DNA from: Halobaculum sp. XH14
GTDB lineage: Archaea > Halobacteriota > Halobacteria > Halobacteriales > Haloferacaceae
DNA length: 64,000 nt
Reading direction: 5' to 3'
Assembly: GCF_032116555.1 (NCBI RefSeq)
Contig: NZ_CP134949.1
Coordinates: forward strand, 682,001 to 746,000
Shown here: positions 12,208-58,100 of the stretch, in pieces
How positions within the stretch are numbered: the stretch's first letter is position 1
How the letters are laid out: every line of letters starts with the position of its first letter
Translations under genes and position numbers: made by a program
Notes under the pieces: generated by a model
The model's input: only the letters and a program-made list of their open reading frames with translations
Databases searched by the model: none
Told to the model about the DNA's origin: nothing

Positions 12208-12408
12208 AAAGTTCTGAGCCGCATTACAGCTCGCGGTGGTAGCTGAATCGATTTACGAGAAGCTCAACGACTCCAATATTGCTGTAGTACGGGTCGCGTC
12301 CCATTTGCTGTAGAAGCGTTCGAGGCTGGGTTTCTTCCGGGAAATCGTGAGGACAGCAGTTACCAGCTTACGGAGGAGCATACGAACGTCGACCTGCCCT
12401 CTGGATTC

Positions 12409-13161
12409 ATGGATAATGATTACGAGGACCCGGATCTGGACAGGTTGCTTGAGAAGTTCCATGAACGGGAGCCACGAGTCGCGGTGATCGGAGACGCCTA
12501 CACCAGGGAAGAGGCGGAGAAGTACCAAGATACCATCGACGACCTCGCTGACGAGTACCCGTACCGGCGTTTCATCGTTGCGCCAAAGTGCGAGGCAGCT
12601 TTCGAGGTCCTGGATGCCGAGACTACGACTCTGGGTTATGCGAACGGGAAGAGTTCGGTGCAGGCAGAAGACTTGGGGCCAGTGAAGTTCCGTGGATGGA
12701 ACGTACATATCCTGGGCGGCAATCCTATCGACGCTTATGAGGCTATGCAGTCATTGACTCAGCCAACTCTGGACGGTCGAGAGCCGGCGAACATCGTTGG
12801 ATATGACTGGAATGGGCCGCTGCGGATGGCCTACTGGGAGTATTGGACGCCAGATGGTTGGCAGGACAACGGGCACTTGACACCTCGGGAAACAGCCCGT
12901 AGATCGTACCAGGAAATCAAGCAGTACCTGCAGGAGAAAGATGTGTGGCCGGAGACTGAGCCTCGGGAACTGTACGGTGAGGCTGTAGAGGAACCGGACT
13001 TTGACATCTTCATGGACAAGGGTGGAGACCCGATTCCGTCGCGTGAAGCCTTGGAGACTTCGTACGTCCGTGAGTACGAGGAGAAAGGCACGCTGGCGTT
13101 TGAGTCAGAGTCGCAGATGAAGTTTATCGAGTACCGGGAAGGCTTGACACCGGTCGGCTGA
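12409..13161 (+). CDS. Hypothetical protein with a distant TGT/DUF6610-like core
   Basis: 250 residues. A first half with RVAVIGDAYTREEAEKYQD and RRFIVAPKCEAAFEVL is followed by WNVHILGGNPIDAYEAMQSL and NIVGYDWNGPLRMAYWEYW. The block HILGG...P......VGYDWN resembles haloarchaeal DUF6610 proteins and, more distantly, tRNA-guanine-transglycosylase-like barrels. This is a memory-based likeness and weak. The C-terminus (from about 195) is acidic and not recognised. Confidence 0.6.
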   Translation: MDNDYEDPDLDRLLEKFHEREPRVAVIGDAYTREEAEKYQDTIDDLADEYPYRRFIVAPKCEAAFEVLDAETTTLGYANGKSSVQAEDLGPVKFRGWNVHILGGNPIDAYEAMQSLTQPTLDGREPANIVGYDWNGPLRMAYWEYWTPDGWQDNGHLTPRETARRSYQEIKQYLQEKDVWPETEPRELYGEAVEEPDFDIFMDKGGDPIPSREALETSYVREYEEKGTLAFESESQMKFIEYREGLTPVG

Positions 13162-14812: not shown

Positions 14813-15133
14813 CTATTCGGTCTCCAGTAGTTCATCGATCTCCCAGAAGTCCATTGTCTCGTCCTGTTCTTCGTCGTAGAGTGCGACTGCTTTCACGCCT
14901 TCTTCCGGCTTCGTGTAGAGCAGGTCATATCGTTCATCGTTGCCGGTGTCGATGGAGAAGTAGGGCATGGTGCTGCCTTTGACTTCGTGACTGTAATCGC
15001 CGGCTTGGTCTTCAAGGATGGATCTGACTTTTTCGAGCGGCAGATTCACGGGGAAGATGTAGTCGCCGTCGTTGAGTTTGATAGAGCCGCCGAGTGGCTC
15101 GCTCAGGGTTTTGTCGTATTCTACACGTCCTAT
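14813..15133 (-). CDS. Hypothetical protein with ATA start, short paralogue of the 52-kb gene
   Basis: 106 residues from an ATA at 15133. The standard-start reading begins only at a GTG at 15049 and would lose EPLGGSIKLNDGDYIFP, which matches ALGGSILLDDGDYVLP in the protein at 51958-52911, so the upstream reading is real. The ATA lies 6 nt after GGTGA (15140-15144), the same spacing as for GTG starts in this operon. Last gene of the leftward small-gene operon. Confidence 0.65.
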   Translation of the reverse strand: MGRVEYDKTLSEPLGGSIKLNDGDYIFPVNLPLEKVRSILEDQAGDYSHEVKGSTMPYFSIDTGNDERYDLLYTKPEEGVKAVALYDEEQDETMDFWEIDELLETE

Positions 15134-15400: not shown

Positions 15401-16099
15401 CTAACCACCTTCCAGCCAGTCGTTCCAGTCTGATTGTCCGTCGACGTCCGGTACATCCAGGTCCGGTTCTCTGTAGGAACGTACTGAGGATTGCCGTGAC
15501 TCAGTATCTTGGTTCCGGGTTTCTTCGTAGAACTCGGCCTCTTCCTTCAACCAGGCCATTTGCTCCCCGATTCCGGAGAAGTCCTGCTCCTGGAATGGGA
15601 ACCGGGTTTCCCAGGGAAACGGTTCGAACACATCGTTCTCTTTGAGAGGGTCGACGTAGTCGTCGCCGGCGAGTACGATTAATCGGCGGCAGTGCGGATT
15701 CTCTTCGGGAAACCCTGATTTCATGCCGAGCCAGGAAGCGAGTCCGTAGTGAACGCGGCGGGTCCAGAAGTCGAGCCGGTCGTTGTAGAGTGGTTCGTCC
15801 CAGGGATAGCTGGTGTGTTGGTAGGCTTCTGGTTCGACTGGTGCTGGTTCTCCTTCCAGGTCTCCTATGGTGGTGTTGTAGGGTTCTGTTTCGAGGCTGG
15901 GCCAGAGTACGTCGTGTTCGGCGGAGAGTATCGCCCAAGGCGTGGTCCCTTCCGGGGCGTCTTCCCCGATTTGTGACCGGGCCTCTGCGTATCGCTTCTT
16001 CAGCTGGAAGTACGTCGACGTGTAGAGATCCTCGGCAGGTACGGGTTCATTCTGTTTCTGCTGGCCGCAGCCAACCAAGACGTAGGTGCCGTCCTCGAT
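15401..16099 (-). CDS. DUF6884 family protein, probable ATC start
   Basis: 232 residues. YVLVGCGQQKQNEPVPAEDL followed by LYTSTYFQLKKRYAEA and WAILSAEHDVLWP is the DUF6884 signature. The first standard codon, TTG at 16078, falls inside the first strand of the domain; reading from the ATC at 16099 adds EDGTYV and restores it. That ATC follows the upstream TAG directly and is 7 nt after GGTGA (16107-16111). The biochemical role of DUF6884 is not settled; it is common in phage and defence contexts. Confidence 0.75.
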   Translation of the reverse strand: MEDGTYVLVGCGQQKQNEPVPAEDLYTSTYFQLKKRYAEARSQIGEDAPEGTTPWAILSAEHDVLWPSLETEPYNTTIGDLEGEPAPVEPEAYQHTSYPWDEPLYNDRLDFWTRRVHYGLASWLGMKSGFPEENPHCRRLIVLAGDDYVDPLKENDVFEPFPWETRFPFQEQDFSGIGEQMAWLKEEAEFYEETRNQDTESRQSSVRSYREPDLDVPDVDGQSDWNDWLEGG

Positions 16100-16327
16100 C
16101 TACGAATCACCTTCTCCGGGTTCGAGTGCTTCCCCAGCTTCTTCGATCGTGGCCGGGAAGATCATCAGATCCGGGTTTTCCTCCAAGGCGGTGTCGATAC
16201 AGTCCTCGTGGCTTTGGATGTAGTCGGGGACTCCAGAGTAGACGAATTTCAGGACTGGTTCTTCAAGATCTGTACCGGTGTAGAGTTCTGCGATGTAGTA
16301 GCCGTCGACCTCTCTGCCGTCTACTAT
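16100..16327 (-). CDS. Small hypothetical protein, non-canonical start
   Basis: About 75 residues (VDGREVDGYYIAELYTGTDL ... PDLMIFPATIEEAGEAL ...). The frame has no ATG, GTG or TTG near its front. Candidate starts are GTC at 16330 (9 nt after GGTGA), ATA at 16327 or GTA at 16324, which overlaps the preceding TAG. Clear coding composition and its fit between coupled genes make it real even though the start is uncertain. Confidence 0.6.
   Translation of the reverse strand: MVDGREVDGYYIAELYTGTDLEEPVLKFVYSGVPDYIQSHEDCIDTALEENPDLMIFPATIEEAGEALEPGEGDS
16107..16111 (-). promoter_or_regulatory. Shine-Dalgarno core deciding the ATC start of the DUF6884 gene
   Basis: GGAGAAGGTGA precedes the ATC at 16099 by 7 nt. 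GGTGA pairs with the 3-prime end of archaeal 16S rRNA. The only standard start, TTG at 16078, is 28 nt away, too far for this site. Confidence 0.6.
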
Positions 16328-16431
16328 GACCGGTGATTCTCACCTTGATTGAGTAAATGTAACCCGAAGAGAGTCGCCGCGACTCCTCCAAAATATGCCA
16401 GTAAAACCACATCCATACAGCTGAACGTCAC
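16324..16431 (-). CDS. Small single-pass membrane protein
   Basis: 35 residues from a GTG at 16431: TFSCMDVVLLAYFGGVAATL then FGLHLLNQGENHRS. One transmembrane helix spans about residues 6-26. The GTG lies 6 nt after GGTGA, and the gene overlaps the end of the 116-residue gene upstream, so it is translationally coupled. Confidence 0.62.
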   Translation of the reverse strand: MTFSCMDVVLLAYFGGVAATLFGLHLLNQGENHRS

Positions 16432-16778
16432 TCTGTATCACCTTCCAGTATCTCCGACACTGGCTCCAGGTCGGCCTCTTCCCGTGCCCGGTCGACGTTT
16501 TCCAAACTCGTTGACGGTCCGGCGGAGAGGAAGACTGCTTTCTTCGCTTCGAAGTACAGATCCTCCGGGATGTCGTAGTCGTCGAGGATGTCCTCGATCA
16601 GTTCTTCCTGCTTGTCCTCGTGGAGATAATGCCGTAGGTAGGTTGGCGGATCGTCTCTGACTGCGTCACCTGGGTCCAGGCTGCTGTAGTCGAGGCCGGG
16701 AGTGGCTTCTTCGTAGAGTGTGTCGAGTATTTCAAAGTAGGCGTCTTCCCATTCATCCTGTACGTCGTCGAGGTTCAC
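16428..16778 (-). CDS. Acidic hypothetical protein
   Basis: 116 residues from a GTG at 16778 (NLDDVQDEWEDAYFEILDTL ...). The GTG is 9 nt after GGTGA and overlaps the stop of the gene before it (GTGA). Mostly helical and acidic, no recognised family. Confidence 0.65.
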   Translation of the reverse strand: MNLDDVQDEWEDAYFEILDTLYEEATPGLDYSSLDPGDAVRDDPPTYLRHYLHEDKQEELIEDILDDYDIPEDLYFEAKKAVFLSAGPSTSLENVDRAREEADLEPVSEILEGDTE

Positions 16779-17269
16779 AGGGAAGGATCACCTTCGCCTT
16801 TCTGGGGTATGTAGTAGGGTTCGTTGCCGCTGAACTTCTCGACACGCTCCAGGTCAACCTCTTCCTCGACGTACTGGTCGATGGCTTCCTCCGCTGCTTC
16901 CAATGTGATCGCTCCTGATCTGCCGCCGAGTTGCTCTGGGTCCGTCCTGTAGAGTGCGTCGAGGCATGGCCCGTAGCCGTACTTGTTCATGATTCCGGCG
17001 CGGCTGCTCCACGGACCTTTCAGAGTGACTTCTTCTCCGTCGACGGTTTCGATCTCGTAGTGGCGTCCGTTGTACCCGTCTTGTTGGCCACCGTCCCAGG
17101 CGAAGAACTGGACGTAACCCGAGTCGTGTTCAGCGTACCATAGCCCCTGTTCCTCGCTGCCTTCAAACTCGAGGTCGCTGGTGTCGGGGATTTCGTCGAC
17201 GTATAGTATGAGTCGTGGGTCGTTTCCGAAGTCTTCCTTCCAGTCGATTTCAGCGTCTTCTAACTCGAT
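16775..17269 (-). CDS. Hypothetical protein with ATC start
   Basis: 164 residues. The first ATG (16990) is preceded in frame by 93 codons of convincing protein, including YAEHDSGYVQFFAWDGGQQD and YEIETVDGEEVTLKGPWSSR. The frame opens after a TGA inside the Shine-Dalgarno GGTGA, and the codon 6 nt later is ATC (17269); the GTG-started genes at 18396 and 16431 have exactly this geometry. The first domain looks beta-rich; function unknown. Confidence 0.68.
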   Translation of the reverse strand: MELEDAEIDWKEDFGNDPRLILYVDEIPDTSDLEFEGSEEQGLWYAEHDSGYVQFFAWDGGQQDGYNGRHYEIETVDGEEVTLKGPWSSRAGIMNKYGYGPCLDALYRTDPEQLGGRSGAITLEAAEEAIDQYVEEEVDLERVEKFSGNEPYYIPQKGEGDPSL

Positions 17270-28214: not shown

Positions 28215-28373
28215 GTGGAGCAGGGTTTCGATCGAGGCGACTACGGCAAGGTATTGAAGGCGATTAAGAAGAAGCACATCTGCCCGATATGCAGCAAGGC
28301 TTGGGACAGTCAGAAGAAGGCAGTGGAGAAGTTCTTTGAGAATCACAGTGTCGACGAACTCGAGTCCAGATAA
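28215..28373 (+). CDS. Small zinc-finger protein
   Basis: 52 residues from the GTG at 28215. HICPICSKAWDSQKKAVEKF then FENHSVDE gives a C2H2-like finger (CxxC with a later His). A TATA-like ATATAAG at about 28191-28197 lies at the usual distance for a leaderless transcript. It overlaps the convergent gene by about 30 bases. Confidence 0.62.
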   Translation: MEQGFDRGDYGKVLKAIKKKHICPICSKAWDSQKKAVEKFFENHSVDELESR

Positions 28374-28669
28374 TCTTCTGAGAACCGATCGACAAGCGCG
28401 TCGTAGCCTTCGTCTTCCAGTATCTCTATGGCTGTCTCTTTGTGCCAGATCGGGTTGTAAGGCTCTTCTATCCTGTATTGTGGGCCGTAGTGGTCGCTGA
28501 TGTAGAGGCCGAATGGGACGTCTTCGTGGTTGTCGAGGTATTCGTGGTCGCAGATGTACCTCTCGTGGATATTGTATTGGTCGCGGTCGATCCAGTCGTT
28601 CCAAACTATGTCATCGATCAGCTGTTCTTCGAGGGTGCGGCCGAACTCGTCGGTGTGGTCTTCCCCAAT
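28343..28669 (-). CDS. Hypothetical protein with ATT start and no ATG, GTG or TTG in the whole frame
   Basis: 108 residues, GEDHTDEFGRTLEEQLIDDI ... IEEPYNPIWHKETAIEILED ... The 109-codon frame has no standard start codon anywhere, yet composition is typical of its neighbours. It begins with ATT at 28669, 7 nt after the GGTGA (28677-28681) that also holds the upstream TGA, so it is the coupled last gene of the three-gene operon from 30291. The function is unknown. Confidence 0.68.
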   Translation of the reverse strand: MGEDHTDEFGRTLEEQLIDDIVWNDWIDRDQYNIHERYICDHEYLDNHEDVPFGLYISDHYGPQYRIEEPYNPIWHKETAIEILEDEGYDALVDRFSEDYLDSSSSTL

Positions 28670-28676
28670 TCCAGGA

Positions 28677-28681
28677 TCACC
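28677..28681 (-). promoter_or_regulatory. Shine-Dalgarno core overlapping a stop codon, before an ATT start
   Basis: TGGTGATCC: the TGA that ends the upstream gene is part of GGTGA, a perfect match to the anti-Shine-Dalgarno, and ATT follows 7 nt later at 28669. The layout is that of a translationally coupled pair. Confidence 0.6.
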
Positions 28682-29279
28682 ATTCTATCTGGTCGGCTGA
28701 CTCCGCGAGTTCGGTCATGTCGTGGCTGTACCCCTCGGGTAGAGTGTATCCTCCGTCAGGAGCGAATTGATCAAGGCCAGACTGCTCTGTTTTGACTTCG
28801 ACCCCTTCCATCTCCTTTGCGTCGAGTTTGATCTTGTACAGGCCGGCGCTTTCGTATCGGTCCTGTTCTTCGGGATTGCTCTCCATGAGGTTCTCCATCA
28901 TCCTCTCGGCTTCTTCCATGGAGTCGTGGGCGATGTCGGCGGAATCGCCGTTCACCATCTTGTCGGAGATATAGTTCCCGTTCTCGTCTCTCCAAGCCCA
29001 GAAGTATTTCCGCGGTCGGCCTCCGTCAGTCATCAGATCGGTTTCTTCGAGATCTCCAAGTTCATCTTCCAGTTCCTCTATCCGGAGATCGTAGTGAGCG
29101 AGAGGAGCGTAGTTGAACAGGCCGTACTTCATCTCACCGTCTCGGGAAGCGTCGAGGAATAGCCAGTGTGGTTTCCTGAACTCGACGTATTCCTCGGTCT
29201 CGATTTTCTCCTGCTCCAGTTCTTGGATTTCCTGCTCGATTTCCAGTTCCTCAGTAAATGGTTCTGAAGCGTCTGAAAT
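28677..29279 (-). CDS. Hypothetical protein with ATT start
   Basis: 200 residues. The first ATG is at 29132, but 49 upstream codons read as convincing protein (ASEPFTEELEIEQEIQELEQ ... EFRKPHWLFLDASRDGE). The frame begins with ATT at 29279, directly after an in-frame TAG and 8 nt after GGTGA (29288-29292). A coiled coil is followed by a region with GRPRKYFWAWRDENGNYISD. Not recognised. Confidence 0.68.
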   Translation of the reverse strand: MSDASEPFTEELEIEQEIQELEQEKIETEEYVEFRKPHWLFLDASRDGEMKYGLFNYAPLAHYDLRIEELEDELGDLEETDLMTDGGRPRKYFWAWRDENGNYISDKMVNGDSADIAHDSMEEAERMMENLMESNPEEQDRYESAGLYKIKLDAKEMEGVEVKTEQSGLDQFAPDGGYTLPEGYSHDMTELAESADQIEW

Positions 29280-29292
29280 CTATGAGATCACC

Positions 29293-30291
29293 CTACGCCT
29301 CGATCTCGTATTCCTGCATGAGTTCTCGGACGGTTTCGCGTTCTCCTTCCCAGTACTCCTCGGCGTCAGGATCCTCGATCAGTTCGTTGGCACGGCTACG
29401 TACTGCGTTTTCTCCGAGGATGTCTGGATGGGGTATGCCTTCTCCGTATTCCAGGATTCCAGCTGCCTGCTCAAATCCTGTATCCAGCTGGTACTGCGGG
29501 ATGTCGTCTTCTGCGAGATGTGTTAGAGCGTAGGTTGCTGCGTTGTAGGTCTCGTACAGGGACGGATTCTCTGGGTCGTCGACTTCCTCCTGGACAGCAG
29601 TAATCAGGTCCGGTGTCGGGTTCTCCAGGTAACGATCTATCCCGGTGTCTTGCAGAACCAGCAGGGCTTCATCCTGGTTCATCAGGGTCCGGTCCTGTGC
29701 CTGTTCGAGCCTATTTTCGACTTCATCGATTCCCTCGATCGCAGAATCTACTGCGTGTATTGCCAGTCCTGGTTGGAACTCCTCCTCGTGAGTCTGTTCG
29801 TAGGTCTGATCAGCTACGAACGCCATCATACCGTTGCTGCAGACCTGCCGCATCGCCCCGTTCTCGTACTTGACGCCGTGGAAACCACTGTGACCGGACC
29901 GTACTCGGAGATCTGTTTCGATTACGTCGCCGGGCTGTGGCTCTACAGTCTGGTCGAGCCCAATCCGGGCGCTCATCTTGTGAACGGTCGGGGATAGGTT
30001 GACTCTGCCGCTGGGTTCGATATCTTCCTCCCTTTGTTCGATCCCGGTTCTGACGGCGTCGAGTATGTCGCCGTACTGGATTACGTTGTAGAAGTCTTCG
30101 TTGCTGGAGACGATGCCTGTTAGTCGGCCGTCGTCGGTCCAGAGACTGTCTCGGTAGGATGCTTCTTGCCATTCATCGAGGTCTTCGTGGTGTCCGAAGA
30201 CTTTCTGGCGTTCTACTTCGGGTATTTCGTCTTCTATGAGTTTTTCAAGTTCGTAGGAGTCGTCAAATCTGAGTGTGTCGCCTCTTGGAAT
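29293..30291 (-). CDS. DUF932-like mobile-element protein with ATT start
   Basis: 332 residues. The block SGFHGVKYENGAMRQVCSNG then MMAFVADQ is characteristic of DUF932, a family frequent on plasmids and phages and of unknown activity. The usual reading (ATG 29976) lacks the 105 N-terminal residues, which include TLRFDDSYELEKLIEDEIPE and TGIVSSNEDFYNVIQYGDIL. The first codon is ATT at 30291, 6 nt after GGTGA. A TATA-like CTTATAAAAA upstream (about 30330-30339) gives a short leader with this ribosome site. Confidence 0.72.
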   Translation of the reverse strand: MPRGDTLRFDDSYELEKLIEDEIPEVERQKVFGHHEDLDEWQEASYRDSLWTDDGRLTGIVSSNEDFYNVIQYGDILDAVRTGIEQREEDIEPSGRVNLSPTVHKMSARIGLDQTVEPQPGDVIETDLRVRSGHSGFHGVKYENGAMRQVCSNGMMAFVADQTYEQTHEEEFQPGLAIHAVDSAIEGIDEVENRLEQAQDRTLMNQDEALLVLQDTGIDRYLENPTPDLITAVQEEVDDPENPSLYETYNAATYALTHLAEDDIPQYQLDTGFEQAAGILEYGEGIPHPDILGENAVRSRANELIEDPDAEEYWEGERETVRELMQEYEIEA

Positions 30292-31489: not shown

Positions 31490-31612
31490 GTGATTGAGGT
31501 TTTCCAGCAGCACCAGGCTTTCTGGCTACTGGTTTTCTTTGTCCTGTTTCTCGTCACCGCGTTCTACGTCGTACAGGGATTGAAGAAGATAGGAGCGGCT
31601 CTGTTCGGTTAA
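31490..31612 (+). CDS. Forty-residue single-pass membrane protein
   Basis: IEVFQQHQAFWLLVFFVLFL then VTAFYVVQGLKKIGAALFG. One transmembrane helix (about 10-30) and a short basic tail. The GTG at 31490 follows GGAGGTTGA, which includes the stop of the surface-protein gene. It converges on the HerA-like ATPase gene with a four-base overlap. Confidence 0.65.
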   Translation: MIEVFQQHQAFWLLVFFVLFLVTAFYVVQGLKKIGAALFG

Positions 31613-33156
31613 ACCGGGCTGTAGACCTGGCTCTCATTCCCGTAACGCTCCACAGTCTCTTTCTGCAGAATGTTTGTCTCCAGTAGTTGGTCGAGGACGC
31701 GCTGGGTCTTACTGGATCCAAACGGTGCGTCATCTTCCCGGTAGCATTTCGACTTGGATGGTCTCTCGTCGTTTTCCTCTATGTACCGGCGGATGAACTC
31801 CAGTAACTGCTGCTCGTCACTGGACAAATCGCTGCCCTGGTCCTCTGTTTCTGGCTCGGAGTTTTCTTCGACTGTATCGACTTCTTTGAGATCTGGTGTG
31901 GAGGCGGTAAATCGGTCCTGTAACCGGTCGATCTGGTTCTGTGTCGGCGCGGTTGGCAGGGTGAATGCTTGACGGACTTCGACGCGGAGCTTCGGATAGT
32001 CTCGGGACTGGATGATTGCCTCGCCGGTAGCCAGGTCCTGGATCTCTCTTCCGTCGTCGAGGAACTTGGAGGCGTAGTCGAAGTACTCGCCGTGAAGGAA
32101 CACGGACACCGTGTTTTCCCGGACGTGCTTGTGGTTCCGGTTGAAGTCCATCGGGCTCTGGGAGACGATGACGACGTGGACTCCGAACTTCCGGGCTTCG
32201 CGTACCAGGTCTTGGATGGCGTCGGCGGCAGCTCCTTTTGTGAAATTGTGTGCCTCTTCCAGGAAGACGAACAAGGGGGTATCTCGTCGGTCGATCTTGG
32301 CGAGCTCGGTGAACACCTTGTTGACGAACTCTTGCTTCTCATCGTCGTCCAGGTCTTTCAGCGTGGCTGCGTTCACCCCGGAGAACAATTCGTGGATGTC
32401 GTCCGGCTTGTCGAGCAGCTGGTCGCCGCCGATCCAGTACTGGTCAGCTGCAAGTCCTACGCCTTCGTCGTGATCCGGGTTCGGCAGGGAAACACCGACT
32501 TCCTCAGTGTCTGATGGCGAGATCGAGAGGACGTCGTAACCGAGTGACGCGATATTTTCCAGGAGAACCCGCTTCAGGTAGCTCTTTCCAGAACCAGTTT
32601 CTCCGGTGATGTAGTAGTGCGGCAGCTCTGCCGGATCGAATCCGACGACCTGGTTAGTCCCGGTCAGGGTGCCGATCATCGGCCCTGTGTTCGGAACCTC
32701 TTCTGCGTACGCCACGGTCTCGGCTTTCAATCCTTGAAGCACGGAGCTGACCGCGCGTGCCGGAGTCGCCTTCGACCGTTCAACCGTGGACTCCCCGACC
32801 TCGACGTCCCGCAACGCAACCGCCATGTACTGCTCGGCAGAACTCCGGCGAAGATCCTTCAACGACTCCCCGAGGTCGTCGTCGACCTGATCCAATAGTT
32901 GCTCGAAGCCATCCGGGTTCAACAAGCCGGTATGCTCTAACCGGTTGAAGACTCGTGGCTCCTCGAGTTCCTCGACGTGCAACTTGAACTTCGGACCCTG
33001 CAGGACTTGCTTCACCTTCCTCCGATGCAGGTCGAAGACTTCGTCGACGTGCCTCTCCGCTGCCTCACCGACCCGGTCTTCCGGGATGACTTCGGGATCG
33101 GTGGAGAACTGGAACAGGTAGGCCAGTGAGACACCGTTAGCCCGCCACTGCTCCAC
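31609..33156 (-). CDS. HerA/DUF87-like ATPase (main frame)
   Basis: 515 residues in this frame. Walker A is ITGETGSGKSYLKR (about 178-191), Walker B LFVFLEEAHNF, followed by GVHVVIVSQSPMDF and a C-terminal winged-helix-like region (about 455-515, KTQRVLDQLLETNILQKE). HerA-type rings translocate DNA or drive secretion. The true N-terminus lies further upstream in another frame: coiled-coil residues VRGELQQAESRLQQILETLE sit in frame before the nominal GTG start. Last gene of the operon from 36386. Confidence 0.85.
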   Translation of the reverse strand: MEQWRANGVSLAYLFQFSTDPEVIPEDRVGEAAERHVDEVFDLHRRKVKQVLQGPKFKLHVEELEEPRVFNRLEHTGLLNPDGFEQLLDQVDDDLGESLKDLRRSSAEQYMAVALRDVEVGESTVERSKATPARAVSSVLQGLKAETVAYAEEVPNTGPMIGTLTGTNQVVGFDPAELPHYYITGETGSGKSYLKRVLLENIASLGYDVLSISPSDTEEVGVSLPNPDHDEGVGLAADQYWIGGDQLLDKPDDIHELFSGVNAATLKDLDDDEKQEFVNKVFTELAKIDRRDTPLFVFLEEAHNFTKGAAADAIQDLVREARKFGVHVVIVSQSPMDFNRNHKHVRENTVSVFLHGEYFDYASKFLDDGREIQDLATGEAIIQSRDYPKLRVEVRQAFTLPTAPTQNQIDRLQDRFTASTPDLKEVDTVEENSEPETEDQGSDLSSDEQQLLEFIRRYIEENDERPSKSKCYREDDAPFGSSKTQRVLDQLLETNILQKETVERYGNESQVYSPV

Positions 33157-33229
33157 GGCCTGTTTCTTCTCCTCCAGCGTCTCCAGGATCTGCTGAAGCC
33201 GGCTCTCGGCCTGCTGAAGCTCTCCTCGG

Positions 33230-33656
33230 ACCTCGTCCTGTTCTGCTGCATCACCGCTTCCAAACTACTTACAGAGTTCCTGACCGCGACCGAGACCGAC
33301 TCCTGCCGGTCCCGAAGCTCCTGTGCCTGTCGCTGCAGACGTCCGGCCTCTGCCAGGAGTTCAGCTACTTCGTCGTGCTCGTCGAGGACTTGGACCGAGG
33401 TCGTGTCGCAGTAGTCGACGCTGAGGGAGAAGCTGGGGAACGTGTTGGCGAGGTACTTGTTGAGTTTGCCGAGGTTGCGGTCCCACATCTCCTGGCCTTC
33501 CTCGTCCTGCTTCACCAAGCGGTACGTCTTCGATGCCCGGACCAGGAACCGGTCCTCTACCAGGTGCGTGACCTCTACCGTGGCCTGGTTGTCCGTATCC
33601 CAGAAAAACTCGGTGCAGGGTTCGACCTCTGTACTGCCGATTTTAACAAGTTCCAT
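33230..33656 (-). CDS. N-terminal part of the HerA-like ATPase in a different frame
   Basis: From the ATG at 33656 this frame encodes a beta-rich domain (STEVEPCTEFFWDTDNQATV, FSLSVDYCDTTSVQVLDE) and the start of a coiled coil (LLAEAGRLQRQAQELRDRQE). At about 33235-33290 the coiled coil passes to the frame of the ATPase by a -1 shift. The frame stays open to 33012, but its residues beyond the switch are arginine/serine/tryptophan-rich noise. I see no classic slippery heptamer, so an indel is the simplest reading. Confidence 0.6.
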
Positions 33657-37795: not shown

Positions 37796-38629
37796 TCAGC
37801 GGTGCGGCTGACGATACATCTCTAATTTCCGCTGGTACTCATCCCAGTCGCTTTCCTGAATCAATTCCTCGTCCTCATCCTCGTACTCCACATCTTCCTC
37901 GTAGCTTCCCCATCCGAAACTGGAGTAGACTGAGTCGCTTCGGTCGGTGACTATCTGAGGTTCCATGTGGAACTGGTCGGCTTTCTTGATTTTCTGGTCG
38001 ATCTGGTAGACGGTTTCTTCCTCGGGTTCGCTGTATCTGAGGTTCTCCCATCCAAATGCTGAGTCCAGGCGGTGTCCTACAGTTGCTCCCGCGAGTTCTC
38101 CTGTGTCTTTGATCCGGGCAAATTGGAATCTGCTGCCATCTCTGAAGTAGTAGAGGTCGCCTTTGTAGTCGTATAGGAAGACTGAGACGCTGCCAGAGGT
38201 GTTCTTCAAGGAGTTTTGAACCGCGTTCACTGTATCGCGGTCTTTCCGTTTGTAGATGTCTCTCAGGAGTTGGTAGCTGTCGGCTCTCCCATCCTTGAAG
38301 TGGTTTTCCGGTGTGACTGAGCCGTTATGGACGAGAACGTTCTCCCGGTGCTTGAACGGGTGACTGTTCTTGAAGCAGACCGCGCCTTGAGTCGCTAAAC
38401 GAAGGTGTAGGACGATAAAACGGCTGTCCTTGTATCTCTCCACGATTTCTTCGATGTCCTCGAAGCCGAGTTGTTCTTCGCTCTTGTAGACTTCTCTGTC
38501 TTCATTGAATACTCCGAATCCGTCGCTGTTTCTCGGCGCGGCTTCATGGACGGCGACGTGGAGCAGTCGGATTAGGTTGGAGGTTTTGATTGTTCCTGTG
38601 GGGTTGTGTAGGAAGAAGATTTCACACAT
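37796..38629 (-). CDS. Class II glutamine amidotransferase (Ntn hydrolase)
   Basis: 277 residues. The N-terminus MCEIFFLHN exposes Cys2 as the nucleophile after Met removal. Further marks are RNSDGFGVFNEDREVY, LHLRLATQGAVCFKNSHPFK and VLVHNGSVTPEN, the glutamine-site and oxyanion elements of GATase II. The enzyme frees ammonia from glutamine for a partner. It overlaps the amidoligase gene by eight bases, so the likely acceptor reaction is that of the amidoligase. Confidence 0.88.
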   Translation of the reverse strand: MCEIFFLHNPTGTIKTSNLIRLLHVAVHEAAPRNSDGFGVFNEDREVYKSEEQLGFEDIEEIVERYKDSRFIVLHLRLATQGAVCFKNSHPFKHRENVLVHNGSVTPENHFKDGRADSYQLLRDIYKRKDRDTVNAVQNSLKNTSGSVSVFLYDYKGDLYYFRDGSRFQFARIKDTGELAGATVGHRLDSAFGWENLRYSEPEEETVYQIDQKIKKADQFHMEPQIVTDRSDSVYSSFGWGSYEEDVEYEDEDEELIQESDWDEYQRKLEMYRQPHR

Positions 38630-39365
38630 TGTAGTTCACCTGTTCTTGAATTGTAGAGTTGTAGCTGGTTTCTGAGCTGTTTTGAATTGATTCTGCTGTA
38701 AGTTCGGCTTCTAAAGTGTCGTTGTAGAGTCCTTGACGTAGGTATGAGTTGATCGATGTCGTCACTATATTGACCGCGTTCATCACGTCTTCTGCTGACT
38801 GCATGGCGGGGAATAGCCGGAACTCGATGGTGTCGTATTTCCCTTTCATAAACGTGATTCTCCGGTATTTCTGCCTCCGGCTCTTTAGCTGACTGTCTAT
38901 CATCCAGCTATTCTCTAACGGGCGGCAGTAGTACCCGTAAGTGGAATCCGGGTCAAATGGATGGAGGTCTTCGTTTCTCACCCGTTTTCTGAGTCGTGGA
39001 CAGGTGTCCCAGAGGTCTGAGTCCTTGAGGCGGTCGATAAACCAGTTATGGAACTTGAGGGATGCGAGTCGGTAGTAATCTCGGTCGTTGTTCAATGAGA
39101 CGTGGATATGCAGTCCCATTGAGGCGTTTATCTCCGAGATTATCTCGTATAACTGGTTTAGAGAGCCTTCGAGCCTGTTTTGCCCGTCTGGGTAACTGAG
39201 CGGTTCGGAGACGTATTCGATGCGTTTTGCGTGGGGTTTTTCGGTTCTTAGAGAGCCGTCGTGTACGGAGTTGAAGTAGGGTATTGCCCGTTCTGTCGGG
39301 GTTGTGCGGTCGTCAATGCCGCACTCTACTTCTACTCCTATTTGGTCTATCCATAGTCCTGAAAT
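38622..39365 (-). CDS. Amidoligase (COOH-NH2 ligase family) with ATT start
   Basis: 247 residues. IDQIGVEVECGI (N-terminal strand with two Glu), HDGSL, RIEYVSEPLS, NASMGLHIHVSLNND and TIEFRLFPAM are the ordered motifs of amidoligase/glutamate-cysteine-ligase-like enzymes. The first ATG (39119) would remove 82 residues including IGVEVE. The frame starts with ATT at 39365, 6 nt after GGTGA, and is closed upstream by TGA. Amidoligases are known to occur beside class II amidotransferases, as here, and are thought to form amide bonds on peptides or proteins. Confidence 0.83.
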   Translation of the reverse strand: MSGLWIDQIGVEVECGIDDRTTPTERAIPYFNSVHDGSLRTEKPHAKRIEYVSEPLSYPDGQNRLEGSLNQLYEIISEINASMGLHIHVSLNNDRDYYRLASLKFHNWFIDRLKDSDLWDTCPRLRKRVRNEDLHPFDPDSTYGYYCRPLENSWMIDSQLKSRRQKYRRITFMKGKYDTIEFRLFPAMQSAEDVMNAVNIVTTSINSYLRQGLYNDTLEAELTAESIQNSSETSYNSTIQEQVNYNV

Positions 39366-39371
39366 CGTTTG

Positions 39372-39376
39372 TCACC
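39372..39376 (-). promoter_or_regulatory. Shine-Dalgarno core 6 nt before the ATT start of the amidoligase
   Basis: AGGTGA, CAAACG, ATT. A TATA-like TTTTTTAAAG (about 39397-39406) lies upstream on the same strand, so the message has a short leader carrying this site. Confidence 0.65.
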
Positions 39377-39448
39377 TATACCAACACTGTGATGTTATCT
39401 TTAAAAAAGTATAATCATAGTGACTATTTGAGGTGAAACAACCGTACA

Positions 39449-40156: not shown

Positions 40157-40471
40157 ATTACATCCGAACAAGAACGCGAGATCGAATCTATACTCAAGAA
40201 ATTCCCATTCCACGGCAGAGACACAGACCGCCAAGTCACCGTGCTATCCTCATACCTGGTAGAGGCACTCGGCAACAACAAGACCGACACAGCCGAAGAA
40301 CTCGAGGTGGATAGGAACACGGTGAACAAGATCGAAAAATCTTGGAACAGTCTGTCCCTATCTGAGAAATTGAAGCTGATCGACTTCCTCCGCAGGGAGG
40401 TTGCCGAGAGACACTTCACAGATCTAGAGGCAGTGTCCGTTGATTCGGGGACCGGCGGCCAGACCGCATAA
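40157..40471 (+). CDS. Helix-turn-helix protein with ATT start
   Basis: 104 residues: TSEQEREIESILKKFPFHGR, then VTVLSSYLVEALGNN and KTDTAEELEVDRNTVNKIEK, the last a helix-turn-helix of the sigma/Xre-like type. The first standard codon (GTG 40241) would lose 28 residues of the first helices. The ATT at 40157 has GGTGA 7 nt before it. Likely a regulator of the small-gene run that follows. Confidence 0.68.
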   Translation: MTSEQEREIESILKKFPFHGRDTDRQVTVLSSYLVEALGNNKTDTAEELEVDRNTVNKIEKSWNSLSLSEKLKLIDFLRREVAERHFTDLEAVSVDSGTGGQTA

Positions 40472-48342: not shown

Positions 48343-49761
48343 ATGTTTCGCAACCACGAGGGCGGGCGTGAGGCAAGCCACCATCACGGCGAACTCTACA
48401 AGGATCTTGTCCGCAGGTACTGGGAGGCCCGTGAATACAATGTTGTCGCGGACTCGAAGGACGACAGCATCACGTCCGACCTGATTATCAGGCGGGCTCA
48501 TGAACACGGGAACCAAGATCTGTGGATCGAGACGAAGGACACGAAGCTGACTCGGACCAATCCGGATTTCCTGGCCGAGTTTGCCCGGTACATGATCGAG
48601 TATCAGGAAATTTCTGCGGAACACCGGTTCGACCTGCATATTTTCGTCCGGTATCTCCGGGCTCCGGAGAAGTGGGAGCGGATTTTCAAGGTGGTCAAGC
48701 AGAAGGATGAGGCTGTAAAGGACTTCTATCAGCGGGTCCAGGATGATGCGGATCTGGACGAGGCTGAGGAAGACAAGTTCAACAGCTACCCTTACGAGGA
48801 TTTTGACCACTTCGTTACAGAGGTCACAACTGTCCATCAGATGTCGCCTGCGAAGGTCCAGCAGGCTACGGAGGAGTTGGAACGCAGTGACCGGTACGAG
48901 CACGACACCTTCACCGAGGAAAGGGAACCGATCAACAAGCGAGAGGAGCTGAGACCGAACTTCGCGGAGATAAACAGTCCGCCAGAGAACATCTATATCG
49001 GGGACGTGGACGTTCCGAACTTCTTCCAGGGAGTTACGAACCTGATTGAGGATACGGAGGCAGTCCGGTTCCGGTCGAACAAGGTATTCAGCTTGCTGCC
49101 TCCCGAGGATTTCCCGGATTACGTGGAGTCGGTCGTGGAGATGGATACGGTTTCAGCTGAGTCTTTCGAGGACTGGGCTAAGGACGAAGAGAACACAGAT
49201 CTGGCTTCGTCCTTGCTGACTCGGGAGATCTGCAGGCAGACCGTGGAGAACCACGAGTTGGACGACTGTGTGGCGTTCCGGTACCGTGGCGACTACTACC
49301 TGATGTTCGAGCACGGACCTCTAGAGAAAGAGGTCGAGAAAGTTCGGGGTCAGCAGGTTTCCCGGGTTTTCAGTGATGCCTCTTCCAGGTTTGTTCGTCA
49401 CCGGACTGCCCAGCTGAACGTCCGGCGTTTGAACGACGACTACTTCCTCTTCGTATTGATCAAGGACCACTTTACGGACAACGGAGAGCACATGACCTTG
49501 ATCAGAGGTGAGAGAAAGGGAAGTCTCCACGATAATTTCCCGCAGCACCGGTACAACAACAGTCAGACGTACAGCAGGTATAACCACTGGCGGAAGATCC
49601 TGGGAATCCACAACCGGGCGAAGGATACCAGTGGTCAGATAATCGGGTTCCGACGTATCACTGAGATCTCGATCGGGAAGCGTCCCGCCGGGACACGGGA
49701 GGCAATCGATACTCGGGACACTGATTCGGTTCAGCAGAAACTGGGTGATCACAATGACTGA
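48343..49761 (+). CDS. Nuclease-APAZ protein, partner of a short Argonaute (SPARDA-like)
   Basis: 472 residues from the ATG at 48343. Residues 17-65 show a PD-(D/E)XK core: Glu17 in HGELYKDL, Asp46 in SDLIIRR and Glu63-Thr-Lys65 in DLWIETKDT. The C-terminal half is an APAZ domain: SSRFVRHRTAQLNVRRLNDD, YFLFVLIKDHFTDNGEH and YSRYNHWRKIL. In SPARDA systems such a protein binds the short pAgo and, when activated by guide-target pairing, degrades nucleic acids indiscriminately. It overlaps the Argonaute gene by eight bases. Confidence 0.85.
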   Translation: MFRNHEGGREASHHHGELYKDLVRRYWEAREYNVVADSKDDSITSDLIIRRAHEHGNQDLWIETKDTKLTRTNPDFLAEFARYMIEYQEISAEHRFDLHIFVRYLRAPEKWERIFKVVKQKDEAVKDFYQRVQDDADLDEAEEDKFNSYPYEDFDHFVTEVTTVHQMSPAKVQQATEELERSDRYEHDTFTEEREPINKREELRPNFAEINSPPENIYIGDVDVPNFFQGVTNLIEDTEAVRFRSNKVFSLLPPEDFPDYVESVVEMDTVSAESFEDWAKDEENTDLASSLLTREICRQTVENHELDDCVAFRYRGDYYLMFEHGPLEKEVEKVRGQQVSRVFSDASSRFVRHRTAQLNVRRLNDDYFLFVLIKDHFTDNGEHMTLIRGERKGSLHDNFPQHRYNNSQTYSRYNHWRKILGIHNRAKDTSGQIIGFRRITEISIGKRPAGTREAIDTRDTDSVQQKLGDHND

Positions 49762-51175
49762 TTTCGATGCACGGTGGCTGGGCGAGCCGTCTCTGAAGTT
49801 CGGAGATGGTGAAGCGAAGGATCCTCGCGCCGGCCTGCTGAAACACGGGCCGTGGTCGCCTGGGGAAGGCAACAACCACAACGATATCTATGTCGGGTTC
49901 ATCGGGACCAGTCACTCCATCAGCGCGGTCAAGCGGTTGTTCACTGAGATGGAGACGGTGATCCCCCGGGAGGAGGAAGAACCTCAAAGGCACAAGCCTC
50001 CGTTCCCGGCCCTGGGCACCGACTCTGCCTTCCGTGCCAGCTTCACGATGCTGGACAGGTGGACGTGGGAGATGCCGCCGAGCGACGTCAAACTCGTTAC
50101 TGACGAGCCCACGACTGACCAGAGCGTAGAGACTCTGCTTGACTTAATGGAGATCTATATCAAGGATCTTTCCGGGGATGACCCGCCTCCGAACGTACTT
50201 GTTATTTCGCTGCCGGAGGAGATCGAGGAAGCCTGTACTCACCCGGACAAGAGCAAGGAGAAGATGAAAGCGGGGGACACTGACTTCCACGACCGGATTA
50301 AGACGTTCGGCCTCGAGTATGACGTCCCCACCCAGCTGATTCGACCGAGTTCTCTCCGGTTCGATGACGATGAGGGACAGGAGAAGGCCGAGGTTGCCTG
50401 GAATCTCGCCGTGGCGATGCTCTACAAGTCACGTGAGGGCCATCCCTGGAAGCTGGGGCACCTGGAGAACGACACCTGCTACGCCGGGATCTCATTCTAC
50501 CGTGTGCGGCACGGCGATAAGAGCCAGACACGGGCTTCACTCGCCCAGGTTTTCCTGGGCACCGGGGAGAGCTTCGTGCTTCGCGGCGGCCAAGCAATTA
50601 GAGACGAGTCAACAGGAAACAACCACTTGACCGAGGACAGTGCGGAGGAGATTGTCGGGCAGATCCTTGACCAGTACAAGAGGAAGCGTCGAGGAGCCGA
50701 GCCCAGCAGGTTCGTGCTTCACAAGACTTCCCGGTTCAAGCCCGGTGAACGAGAAGGGTTCAAACGAGGGGCTGGAGACATCGACAAACTGGACTTCGTC
50801 ACGGTGCGCGACGGCGACCCAGTCAGGCTGTACAGTTCAGGGAATTACCCGCCGCTTCGTGGGACAGTAGTCACTCCGAAAGGCGAGGACAAACACTACC
50901 TCTACACACAGGGCTACACTCCGGCCATTCAGACGTATCCAGGTCCTCGCATCCCGGCCCCGATCACCGTTGAGCCAGATCCGGAGGAATGCCACAGCTC
51001 GTACGACGAGATATGTGAGGAGATTCTCTCGTTCACGAAGCTGGACTGGAACACGTCCGACTTTTCGAAAAAGAAGCCGGTCACGATCCGTGTGGCGCAG
51101 GCTGTCGGCGCGATCCTTGCAGAGGCCGACAAACGGGGAATCACGGTCAAACCGCAGTACTACTATTATATGTAA
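49754..51175 (+). CDS. Short prokaryotic Argonaute (MID-PIWI)
   Basis: 473 residues from the ATG at 49754, just after GGTGATCAC. MID features: VPTQLIRPSSLRFDDDEGQE and NLAVAMLYKSREGHPWKL. PIWI features: CYAGISFYRV, SRFVLHKTSRFKPGEREGF, LYSSGNYPPLRGTVV, YTPAIQTYPGPRIPAPI and FTKLDWNTSDFS. The catalytic Asp expected in the first PIWI strand is missing (AGISF), so it should be slicer-inactive, as short pAgos are. It would use small guides to detect invading nucleic acid and activate its nuclease partner. Confidence 0.93.
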   Translation: MTDFDARWLGEPSLKFGDGEAKDPRAGLLKHGPWSPGEGNNHNDIYVGFIGTSHSISAVKRLFTEMETVIPREEEEPQRHKPPFPALGTDSAFRASFTMLDRWTWEMPPSDVKLVTDEPTTDQSVETLLDLMEIYIKDLSGDDPPPNVLVISLPEEIEEACTHPDKSKEKMKAGDTDFHDRIKTFGLEYDVPTQLIRPSSLRFDDDEGQEKAEVAWNLAVAMLYKSREGHPWKLGHLENDTCYAGISFYRVRHGDKSQTRASLAQVFLGTGESFVLRGGQAIRDESTGNNHLTEDSAEEIVGQILDQYKRKRRGAEPSRFVLHKTSRFKPGEREGFKRGAGDIDKLDFVTVRDGDPVRLYSSGNYPPLRGTVVTPKGEDKHYLYTQGYTPAIQTYPGPRIPAPITVEPDPEECHSSYDEICEEILSFTKLDWNTSDFSKKKPVTIRVAQAVGAILAEADKRGITVKPQYYYYM

Positions 51176-51957: not shown

Positions 51958-52911
51958 CTAGAAGTCAGTGAGGCCGATCTGCTCCGTTTCTTCGCCGTCC
52001 TCGTCTTCCTGTTCGTCTTCTTCGAGTCCGTATTCTTTTTTGACTCGTTCCGGCATCTGCAGGACCCCAGAGTCAGGGCTGTGCTCGTTCCTGTAGACTC
52101 CGGCTTTCTGAAGTTCTTCGAATAGGCTGTGAGCGTCGATGTCCCACGTGTTCTCGAGATGGGTGACGTCGCTGGTCGTGGCCCAGGAGATCGTTCTCAA
52201 GTTGGTGTATTCGTCGATCAAGAGTTCAGCAAGAGATGAATCGACGCCGTCGACCTCGGAAAGCCGTTCGATGAAGTGGTCCTCGGCCAGGTCGTCTACG
52301 TGGAAGGTGTCGTAGACCTCTTCGCTGCCCCGGTCCAGTACGTGGATCTCGTTCAGGATCTTCGTCCCGGTTATCTCGTTGGTGCCGCGTAGCTCGGCGG
52401 TCAATTGGTATTTCTCCAGAGCGGCTTCTGGTGTGAGTTCGAGGAAGTCGGGTCGGTAGTCGACGTAGATGTCGTTCGAGTCCTCGGTTTTTGATTCGAG
52501 TATGTCCGCTGCGGTGGAGAACGGTGCCCGGAACGGAAGCACGTAGTCGCCGTCGTCGAGTAGGATGGAGCCGCCGAGTGCGTCATTCAGTCCTGGGTCG
52601 AACTCCGGGTCGGGCAGTGAGCGGTAGCCGTGGTTCTCCAGATTATCGATGACGTCTTCCCAGGGCTGCTGGTAAACGTAGTCTTGAAGCCGTGCTTTGG
52701 GGTCGCCGTGGTCCAGTCTCCAGGCATCGTCTTGCTGGAGCTGGCCTTCCTGGTCGGGGCTGGCGAGTATGACTTCTGCGTGTTCGGGTGTGTATCGGTA
52801 GAAGTGTAGGTAGCCTTGTTCTGCGTCTTTTCCAAGGAACTGGTACTCTGCGTCGTGGAACTCGACTGTTTCCGGAGCGCCAGTGTCGATTTGATGTCCA
52901 CCCTGAAGCAG
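51958..52911 (-). CDS. Hypothetical protein, N-terminus missed by standard starts
   Basis: About 317 residues. The usual reading starts at a GTG at 52542, but the frame upstream encodes convincing protein: QIDTGAPETVEFHDAEYQFL, YLHFYRYTPEHAEVILASPD and ALGGSILLDDGDYVLP, the last shared with the gene at 14813-15133. No ATG, GTG or TTG precedes it; a CTG at 52911 follows an in-frame TAA. A well-placed leaderless GTG (near 52900) is in another frame, so an early one-base indel is an alternative. Confidence 0.68.
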   Translation of the reverse strand: MLQGGHQIDTGAPETVEFHDAEYQFLGKDAEQGYLHFYRYTPEHAEVILASPDQEGQLQQDDAWRLDHGDPKARLQDYVYQQPWEDVIDNLENHGYRSLPDPEFDPGLNDALGGSILLDDGDYVLPFRAPFSTAADILESKTEDSNDIYVDYRPDFLELTPEAALEKYQLTAELRGTNEITGTKILNEIHVLDRGSEEVYDTFHVDDLAEDHFIERLSEVDGVDSSLAELLIDEYTNLRTISWATTSDVTHLENTWDIDAHSLFEELQKAGVYRNEHSPDSGVLQMPERVKKEYGLEEDEQEDEDGEETEQIGLTDF

Positions 52912-55103: not shown

Positions 55104-58100
55104 CTATCTGTACTGGTTGATGAGTTCGCGGATGTCGTCGGAGTCTACGTAGAGACCTTGCAGACGGGTGGTTCTGTCTGCTTCTTTCAGCAGCATGTCG
55201 CCGTCGCCACCGAGTTCCTCGGCTCCGCCCTCGTCGATCAGGATCCGTGAGTCGGACTGCTTCGGGAGGCGGAAGGCTACCCGGGTGTCCAGGTTGGCAC
55301 GGAGATCCGTGTCGATGGCCTCGTGCGAAGGCCGCTGGGTCGAGATAACGAGGTGGACGCCTTGCGCCCGTGCGATCTGGGCGATACGCCGCACGTTGTC
55401 CTCGGTGTCGTCAGCGTCTTCTCCCAGCTGCTGGAGCAGGTCGCTGTATTCGTCGATGATGACGACGATTGGCTTCATCTGGTCGTCCGGGTTCTGCTCG
55501 TTGTACTCTCCGATGTCCCGGCAGACGCTTTCCCGCAGCAATTGTTTTCTACGCGGGATTTCTTCGTCGACCAGCCACTCGAACAGGTCGGCTGCGTCCT
55601 CCGAGTCGGTGATCACCTCACCATTGGCAAGGTTCGGCAGGGCGTCGAAGAAGATGAAGTCGGTCTCCTTCGGATCGACCAGGGCGAACTCGACGTTGTC
55701 CTCGCCTTTCTGCTCGATGAAGTTGAAGATCAGCGAGTACAGGAAGACGGTTTTCCCGCCGCCAGTGGCACCTCCGACCAGCATGTGAGGGGCTTCGGAA
55801 AGATCGGACCGGTAAACCTCCCCGTCGGGTGTGACTCCTGCGAGGTAGGGCAGTGAGGCAGTGTCGATCTCGTTGGAAGGCAGGTACTGGTCTCTGTAGT
55901 CGCGGAGGGGTACGGCGACGTTGTTCTCACGTGGGACGTCCAGGGCTACGTACTCTGTGCCTGGTAGTCGCTGGACGATGGGTTCTTTCTCGAACGCCAT
56001 TTCCCGGGCGATGTCCTCTGTTCGTTGTTCCAGAGGACTCTGTTTTTCGCCAGCTGCTAACCGGATTTTGAACCGGACGACGTTTGGTCCGACCTCGATG
56101 TCATCTGGGTCGATATCCCGGATGTTGATTTTGAAGTCGTTGAGCACCCGTTTCAGGGTCTCGACTAGCTCTGAGTACTCTTCTGGGTCGCCGAACCGCT
56201 TAGTGGGCTTCGCTTCGACTTCCGTTTCTTCCTCGTCTTCTTCGTCTGTCTCCTCGTCTTCTCCAACTTCGTCTTCGGATTCGTCGGGTTCAGTTTCTTC
56301 CTCTATTTCTTCTTCGACGTCTTCTTCGACGTCTGGCTCTTCCGTGTCCTGGTCTTGTTGCTTCTCCTCCCGGTCTTCGATTCCGCTGACGATGAGGCGT
56401 TTGATGGACTGCCGTGGAAGCCTGTCGAGTCGGATGGACTGTGCGTTCGGCGTGACTCCGTCGATGCGTTCGTCCGATGTCCCTTCATCGGTGACTTCAA
56501 CGGAGATGATTCGGGGATTGATCTCGATCTGAGCGTCTCCCTTGAACACGTCGTTGATGCGGTCAGCCCATTCCTGCTTGCCCTCCATCGCTTCAGCGGA
56601 CGTGAGTTCGTAGTACAGCTGTTCCCGGAGTGCTTCTTTCCGGGGCGAAGTAGTGATGTTGCTGTCGCCGGTGAACAAGCCGCGGATGGTGTCCGTCGTT
56701 TCGAATACCTGGTCGACGGCACTTCCCTTGATTACCGGTGTGTCCTCGTCTCGTGAGATTGTGTACGCGCTGCTGGTCTCCTCGAGTGTTTTTATCTCGA
56801 TTATATCGAGGATGAGGCCGCCATCGTCATCGAATTGGACGGTAAGGATGTCTGCCCGGCTCTCGCTGTCGCCCAGGTTCAACCATTCTCTGGTCCGCGG
56901 GTTGTCGATGGAGAAGATTAGCTTGGGATCTGCCAGTGTCTGTTGCAACCACTGGACTGCGATGATCGAGCCAAGCAGCCCTTTCGTGTTACGGGATTTT
57001 CCGCTGCCGAGGGTTTCCCGCGTGATGAGCCGGAGAAGTCCGCTTTGCTGCAGATCTGCGATTCTTTCAGCGATTTCTTCGAGGTCGGTGTCGTCGGGAG
57101 CGAGCCGGTATTCGTTGATGATGCGGCGGAGTACCCGTCGGAAGTAGTCGATGTCTTCCGAGTACGTGGCGAAGTCACGGTCACCGCGTCGTTCCCTGGA
57201 GATCAGGTTTTCCTTCCAGAACGGGTTGCCGTTCATCGGCGGGGAGGAGATCGATACCCAGATCCCGGAGTCGAGAAGTTTGTCGATGGTCTCCTTGTCG
57301 ACGTTCAGTTCGTTGATCTCAGCGTTGTGGATAGCTTGACGCTGATTGTATAGTTGGTTGATCAGGTCCTGGTACTCTGAGAAGAGCACGCCTTCCTTCG
57401 ACGGCGAGATGTTGATCTTGTCTTCGAGGAGGTCGTAGTCGAACTCCTTCGGGACGTACAGTGGATGGATGTTGGTGTCGGCGTCTCGTTCGAAGGTTTG
57501 GATGCTGAAGTTGCTCTGGTCGTTGAGCAGGATGAAGTGCTTGGGGTCGCCGGTCAGGTCCTCGGCGTACGAGTCGTAGCTGGTGTGTTCGGTCGTGACG
57601 ATTTCGAAGTTCCCGGAGTCGTTGTCCGGGCCGAACAGGTTGATGATGTCCTCTGAGGTTTGGGGTGAGACAGTTCCGTTGAGGACTGGCTTCTCCTCGT
57701 CCTCGATGAACACGAACTCGACAGTGGCACCTTGGATCTTCTCTTTGTCGGCCAGGTCAACGATGTCTTCCAGCAGGTCGATCGGGTCAAGCGGGTCGAT
57801 AACGCTGATCCGCAGCTGGCGTTGGGATGGCGGGTATGCCGATACGAACTTGTTCAGGACGTAGTCGTAGAACTTGGAGTTCGTGCCTTCTGCAGCGTTG
57901 TCTATACGGGTGTAGACTGGCAGCCGGTCGAGTTCGGCGGACTGTACGAGGTAGGTTTCTTCGCCAAGTCGGTAGTTTCCGCCGACGTGGATGCTACGGA
58001 GTACGTGGGGTTGTTCCTCGACGCTGTCGATCAGGAAGTTCCGTTCCTCTTCTGTGAGCGACTCGTGTTCGTCGTTCACTCCCCGTGCCAGTTCGGAGTA

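Follow-up and report, generated by a model that had tools for sequence, protein, structure and literature searches.

In many haloarchaeal genomes isoleucine codons occupy a conserved translation start, behind a motif whose form and spacing are fixed, as is shown here by computation. It is likely, although no experiment has been made, that in haloarchaeal integrative elements of low GC content the translation of many genes begins with AUU, AUC or AUA (AUH) behind the motif GGTG[AG]. An amidoligase gene (38622..39365, minus strand) of the window, the 64,000-nucleotide stretch of the Halobaculum sp. XH14 genome analysed here, is probably one case of this element-wide habit with AUU 39365 as its start, a reading for which there are no protein, RNA or ribosome data.

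Probable isoleucine start codons in the DUF932 family

The DUF932 gene of the window (29293..30291, minus strand) comprises 332 codons from ATT 30291, which follows AGGTGA 30303-30298; its first ATG is at 29976. Against the DUF932 Pfam model the protein scored 24.7 bits without the upstream extension and 33.4 bits with it. Full-length orthologues occur across the haloarchaea, with hosts such as Haloarcula vallismortis (ATCC 29715), Natrinema altunense, Haloferax gibbonsii (ATCC 33959) and Halorubrum vacuolatum, and nearly all of them align from residue 1-10. No relatives were found in plasmid and phage collections; distant viral relatives, whose matches to the DUF932 protein are mostly confined to its later part, were left out. 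Since the loci were collected by protein homology alone, the motif was not imposed on them by the search.

The start column of 36 distinct haloarchaeal loci contained ATT or ATC 29 times, ATG six times, CTG once and GTG or TTG never. In 28 of the 29 loci with an isoleucine codon (19 ATT and 9 ATC) GGTG[AG] stands 6-7 nt upstream, and the remaining ATC (L115) sits behind the variant GGTCG. ATG is found in L066, L070, L106, L110, L111 and L112, with the motif farther off in the latter two. The start codons of L111, L112 and L115 were assigned by eye; the automatic count had returned ACG for L111 and no match for L112 and L115. The single CTG belongs to Natronococcus sp. A-GB1 (L114), where it lies 5 nt after GGTGA and is aligned with the ATT of the relative L113, so that a CUG start is a possibility in this orthologue.

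In 15 loci an in-frame stop lies no more than five codons upstream of the ATH codon, which leaves no alternative start nearby. Ahead of the first canonical codon, changes at codon position 3 exceeded those at positions 1 and 2 together in 90 of 91 pairs; this region therefore evolves as protein. The recurrence of the same layout in many genomes also rules out a sequencing error or frameshift as its cause. By computation, and without N-terminal protein data, the isoleucine codon at the DUF932 start is thus conserved or exchanged only for other start codons.

Probable AUH starts in related regions

In addition to the window, the survey included 13 related regions of 40 kb each, all with a GC content of 0.49-0.57. 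As these 13 were picked for carrying a DUF932 orthologue, the counts give no frequency for haloarchaea at large. The 14 regions contained 38 coding frames without a canonical start in at least their first 28 codons, and 25 of these frames had an ATH codon 5-8 nt after GGTG[AG] (13 ATT, 9 ATC and 3 ATA). The spacing was 6 or 7 nt in 23 of the 25 cases, at which the GTG within GGTGA is out of frame and cannot be the start. On the same 38 frames other NNH codon sets scored 0-2 and permuted motifs 0-5. The 25 AUH frames form 11 families. This set overstates the share of AUH genes, because it was selected for lacking near canonical starts, and the presence of the motif at every accepted AUH start is partly due to the construction of the search.

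None of 71 start-less frames from the host core carried ATH behind the motif. The host-core set is imperfect, as antisense frames of high GC content inflate its start-less count, and a normalised count over 399 coding frames is the better control; host statistics were drawn from about 300-340 kb. When codons behind the motif were counted without reference to frame, the signal was too diluted for a decision; restriction to coding frames resolved this. After GGTGA, ATT was seen 21 times against 2.4 expected (8.7-fold) and ATG 28 times against 3.3 (8.6-fold), with ATA at 9 against 1.7 and GTG at 12 against 3.2. ACG (3 seen, 4.9 expected) and CTG remained near background, and ATC alone was only about 1.5-2-fold enriched after GGTG[AG]. 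No such enrichment was observed in the host core.

Further AUH frames in the window

Besides the amidoligase gene, eight frames of the window have AUH 5-8 nt after GGTG[AG], one of them (40157) merely as a candidate. A window-wide listing of AGGTGA revealed the same layout before ATT 30291, ATC 17269 and ATA 15133, and GGTGA or GGTGG precedes ATT 28669, ATT 29279, ATT 40157, ATC 52890 and ATC 12247. The stretches ahead of the first canonical start scored as coding in all seven cases tested.

Six of the eight frames encode proteins of unknown function. Next to the DUF932 gene lie 28677..29279 (minus strand; ATT 29279, first ATG 29132), whose orthologue in genome G046 reads AGGTGA-TCTACA-ATA, and 28343..28669 (minus strand; ATT 28669), a frame without any ATG, GTG or TTG whose orthologues in G065 and G643 start with ATC. 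The gene at 16775..17269 (minus strand) has ATC 17269 and its first ATG at 16990, with TGA-ATC in the G643 orthologue, and the one at 14813..15133 (minus strand) has ATA 15133 and its first GTG at 15049. On the plus strand, ATC 12247 of the gene at 12247..13161 stands right after an in-frame TGA and 7 nt behind GGTGG, and the orthologue in G116 likewise reads TGA-ATC. ATC 52890 of the gene at 51958..52890 (minus strand) also follows GGTGG by 7 nt, the first GTG being codon 126 of the frame; its G643 orthologue has GGTGA 7 nt ahead of ATC. The candidate, ATT 40157 of a small HTH-like protein (40157..40471, plus strand), has GGTGA 7 nt upstream and its first GTG at 40241.

Two further observations concern window genes outside this set. 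The DUF6884 gene at 15401-16099 (minus strand) has a TTG at 16078, yet ATC 16099 stands 7 nt after AGGTGA and may possibly be another AUC start. At 31609-33264 and 16100-16339 (both minus strand) coding sequence extends upstream of the first canonical start with no ATH 5-8 nt behind the motif.

The amidoligase and its N-terminal part

The minus-strand frame 38622-39371 runs through 249 codons without interruption by a stop or frameshift and is preceded by the in-frame stop TGA 39374-39372. From ATT 39365 it comprises 247 codons of an amidoligase (PF12224, glutamine synthetase (GS)-like COOH-NH2 ligase). The first in-frame ATG, GTG or TTG is the ATG at 39117..39119 (minus strand), which yields a fragment of 165 amino acids, and the 82 codons ahead of it hold the segments IGVEVE (residues 9-14), VHDGSL and EYVSEPL. 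The PF12224 score was 36.2 bits with the 82 N-terminal residues and 16.5 bits without them, at a gathering cut-off of 22. With a custom profile of 14 viral amidoligases the full protein scored 59.1 bits and the protein without its N-terminus 19.6 bits; 200 shuffled N-termini gave 19.2 +/- 1.4 bits (maximum 28.7) and the other two frames about 0. An alignment of 16 sequences has 14 invariant columns, eight of which fall within the N-terminal part (G10, E12, E14, D36, E50, V52, S53 and N80). The protein possesses all motifs of Amidoligase_2, namely the GxExE first strand, D-x-S, E-x-VS, N-x-S-x-G-x-H and E-x-R, and a match to PHROG 7469 covers residues 7-91. Codon usage of the 81 upstream codons is coding-like with 0.26 bit/codon (null mean -0.33), a value reached by 1.5% of the null.

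The predicted structural model has an overall pLDDT of 69.7 and a pTM of 0.71. Its N-terminal elements, strands 6-18, 31-35 and 46-53 and helix 60-75, have block means of 73-94 pLDDT (78, 92 and 73 over residues 1-30). The model aligned with YbdK (Z 12.2, 207 residues, rmsd 3.7) and with glutamine synthetases (Z 10-11.6), in both cases from amidoligase residue 1-4 onwards, and phage amidoligases were at the top of a viral structure search; a PDB sequence search returned nothing useful. The fold predicted by the model is that of a glutamine-synthetase-like carboxylate-amine ligase and begins within the 82-residue part.

These computations show that the 82-residue N-terminal part is needed for the amidoligase. 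The gene is likely to encode a complete GS-like amidoligase of 247 residues, for which ATP-dependent amide-bond formation itself is inferred without an assay. The 165-residue product from ATG 39119, judged from sequence alone, would not be an amidoligase enzyme.

The earlier note had placed IGVEVE, HDGSL and EYVSEPL in the 82 codons before the first ATG and had regarded this segment as enzyme core. Both claims held, the latter on the Pfam score, the custom profile, the invariant residues, the fold and the codon usage. The match to Amidoligase_2 extends over the N-terminus when it is present and falls below the cut-off when it is not; hence the model does not match equally well without the 82 residues, and no independent upstream gene encodes them. 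The expected coverage of the family model from its first strand was not met by the local Pfam alignment, which starts only at position 42 of the model (residue 24). This strand is supported otherwise, by the invariant G10, E12 and E14, by PHROG 7469 and by the predicted strand 6-18. The claim that the strand is present only if translation starts at AUU was too strong on family evidence alone, for which any start at or upstream of 39341 suffices. Family evidence leaves the AUU start undecided; its support comes from the pattern of AUH after GGTG[AG], which the note did not contain.

No orthologue of the amidoligase was found in 99 relatives, nor in viral, named-genome, phage and plasmid collections. 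Within the order, Amidoligase_2 matched just one further protein, a GCS2-type ligase that is not an orthologue. The adjoining gene (37796..38629, minus strand) encodes a class-II glutamine amidotransferase with an ATG start and AGGTGA 6 nt upstream (38641-38636); its orthologue was likewise absent from the 99 relatives. Its position would fit a supply of ammonia to an amide-forming ligase, a coupling inferred from the sequence only.

Start site of the amidoligase

The proposed start codon ATT (39363..39365, minus strand) lies 6 nt behind AGGTGA (39372..39377, minus strand), whose TGA is the in-frame stop and which perfectly complements GGATCACCTCCT, the 3' end of the 16S rRNA encoded by this genome. 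A TATA-like box TTTAAA, read from the sequence at 39400..39405 (minus strand), would put the transcription start near 39376. For family homology to be satisfied, translation must begin no farther downstream than 39341, a limit met in frame by ACG 39368, ATT 39365 and ATA 39350 and 39341; otherwise a frameshift from ATG 39354 would be needed. As there is no amidoligase orthologue, the assignment of AUU 39365 rests on the motif and its spacing of 6, on the lack of alternatives and on the usage elsewhere in the element.

Setting of the gene

The window lies largely in a low-GC island, which spans positions 4500 (approximately) to 64000 and continues on contig C1 as far as about 786 kb, with a GC content of 0.49-0.60 against about 0.70 for the genome. 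Its genes include a tyrosine integrase (7282-8283), HerA/DUF87 ATPases, Cdc6/Orc1 and FtsK-like genes, and the island is likely, as inferred from its sequence, to be an integrative element with a length of perhaps 100 kb. Its continuation carries a 115-nt tRNA-like sequence with an intron-like insert (G000:C1:764271-764385; L042:18271-18385), located directly after a tRNA 3'-half fragment. This sequence scored 31.6 bits with the Rfam tRNA model, was missed by ARAGORN and could be an attachment-site relic. A DruA-like protein (62809-63960) stands beside unknown genes and an FtsK-like ATPase of 1535 amino acids (55104-59711), possibly as a defence-type cluster. The gene at 49745-51175, with a weak match to the Piwi domain (E 0.008), adjoins an unknown gene of 496 amino acids.

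Proposed mechanism and alternative explanations

In the proposed mechanism, translation of the amidoligase would begin at AUU 39365, positioned by pairing of AGGTGA with the 16S tail. Ordinary initiator Met-tRNA would decode AUU, AUC and AUA despite a mismatch at the third base, and pairing between GGUGA and the 16S tail would stabilise the mismatched initiation and compensate for it; both the insertion of methionine and the pairing are inferred. Bacterial initiation requires pairing at the first two bases of the codon and is lax at the third (PMC10158994), with which the presence of AUH and AUG and the lack of GUG and UUG at the DUF932 start agree. The weak start codon may, as an inferred guess, hold expression low or conditional, and the ligase and the adjoining amidotransferase would work together, which is equally an inference.

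A bolder reading, to which we give slightly less than even credence, holds that this element class adopted isoleucine codons plus a Shine-Dalgarno-like motif as its regular start signal, with avoidance of GUG and UUG in at least one family. The signal would act as a translational switch, holding expression of the element's genes down until there is a change in initiation fidelity or in some unknown factor.

Four rival explanations were considered, all of them very unlikely. The first, which concerns the amidoligase only, is a start at the out-of-frame ATG at 39352..39354 (minus strand), possibly leaderless, which opens a frame of 13 codons and would require a +1 shift, an indel or a sequencing error. 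From this ATG it is 13 nt to IGVEVE, with an offset of one base from the frame; GGTATAGG stands about 26 nt upstream of the ATG, and frameshifting has been reported for haloarchaeal viruses (PMC8211752). However, it sits 17 nt from the motif, whereas AUH starts cluster at 6-7 nt, no known slippery sequence is present, and the motif-AUH layout recurs across numerous genes and genomes, in which it cannot stem from an error.

According to the second, the isoleucine codons need a dedicated initiator tRNA or a factor of the element, and the proteins may begin with isoleucine. The use of all three isoleucine codons, the lack of GTG and TTG at the DUF932 start and the tRNA-like sequence at G000:C1:764271 on the same island speak for it. 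Against it, ATG replaces the isoleucine codons freely at the same position, and scanned related regions mostly had no tRNAs, those found being Leu, Gly and Thr. The window has no tRNA genes. No SUI1/aIF1 gene was found in the island, the two such genes lying at 440 kb and 1.93 Mb.

The third is that the amidoligase gene is expressed short from ATG 39119 or is a decaying remnant. The frame from ATG 39119 is the choice of standard gene callers, but the fragment lacks eight of the 14 invariant residues and falls under the Pfam cut-off, and the upstream codons look coding in a frame unbroken by stop or frameshift. Lastly, the start might be a near-cognate codon other than ATT 39365, namely ACG 39368 or ATA 39350; both are in frame and upstream of the conserved strand, but ACG is unenriched after the motif and the two lie 3 nt and 21 nt from it, respectively. 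Initiation at AUU 39365 behind AGGTGA remains the preferred reading.

Comparison with known systems

The AUU start of the Borrelia burgdorferi plasmid gene pncA (bbe22) has been proven by experiment (PMC13398362). As in the amidoligase, an enzyme gene on an extrachromosomal element has AUU, a truncated database entry and a missing N-terminus that is needed for the fold. In contrast to this single bacterial gene, the pattern described here recurs in archaea and is known by comparison alone.

The Escherichia coli genes infC and pcnB have an AUU start and a Shine-Dalgarno motif, and infC is subject to feedback by IF3. Unlike infC, the AUH genes include no initiation factor as far as searched, and feedback is not shown; an element-encoded initiation factor for control of the infC type was absent, in a search limited to SUI1/aIF1.

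Phage amidoligases (PF12224; PHROG 2443 and 7469) share with the archaeal protein the GxExE strand, D-x-S, ExVSPxL, NxSxGxHxH, ExR and a GS-like fold, and one of them has a gamma-glutamyl cyclotransferase nearby. Those examined have canonical starts, whereas the archaeal one, with 17-25% identity, has the proposed AUU.

A survey of start codons in 36 prokaryote genome groups detected two switches to AUU among more than 60,000 starts (PMC5622118). No report of an AUH-started gene family in archaea was found in the literature searched, the coverage of which was incomplete, so precedence is unsettled. Against the view of AUU as a curiosity stands one class of archaeal elements, whose probable isoleucine starts span many genera and no fewer than 11 gene families. 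Gene finders that admit just ATG, GTG and TTG truncate or miss such genes, including one without any canonical start.

In Haloferax volcanii, too, the Shine-Dalgarno motifs contain GGAGGTGA, complementary to the 16S tail (PMC3986360). There the motif precedes distal genes of operons, whose starts are normal, and in a 5' leader it was inactive and failed to drive initiation (PMC3986360). Here, unlike in H. volcanii, it accompanies AUH starts, including that of the first gene of a divergent unit. The pattern reopens the question of the role of Shine-Dalgarno motifs in haloarchaea, and if the bolder reading were true, the motif would gain such a role.
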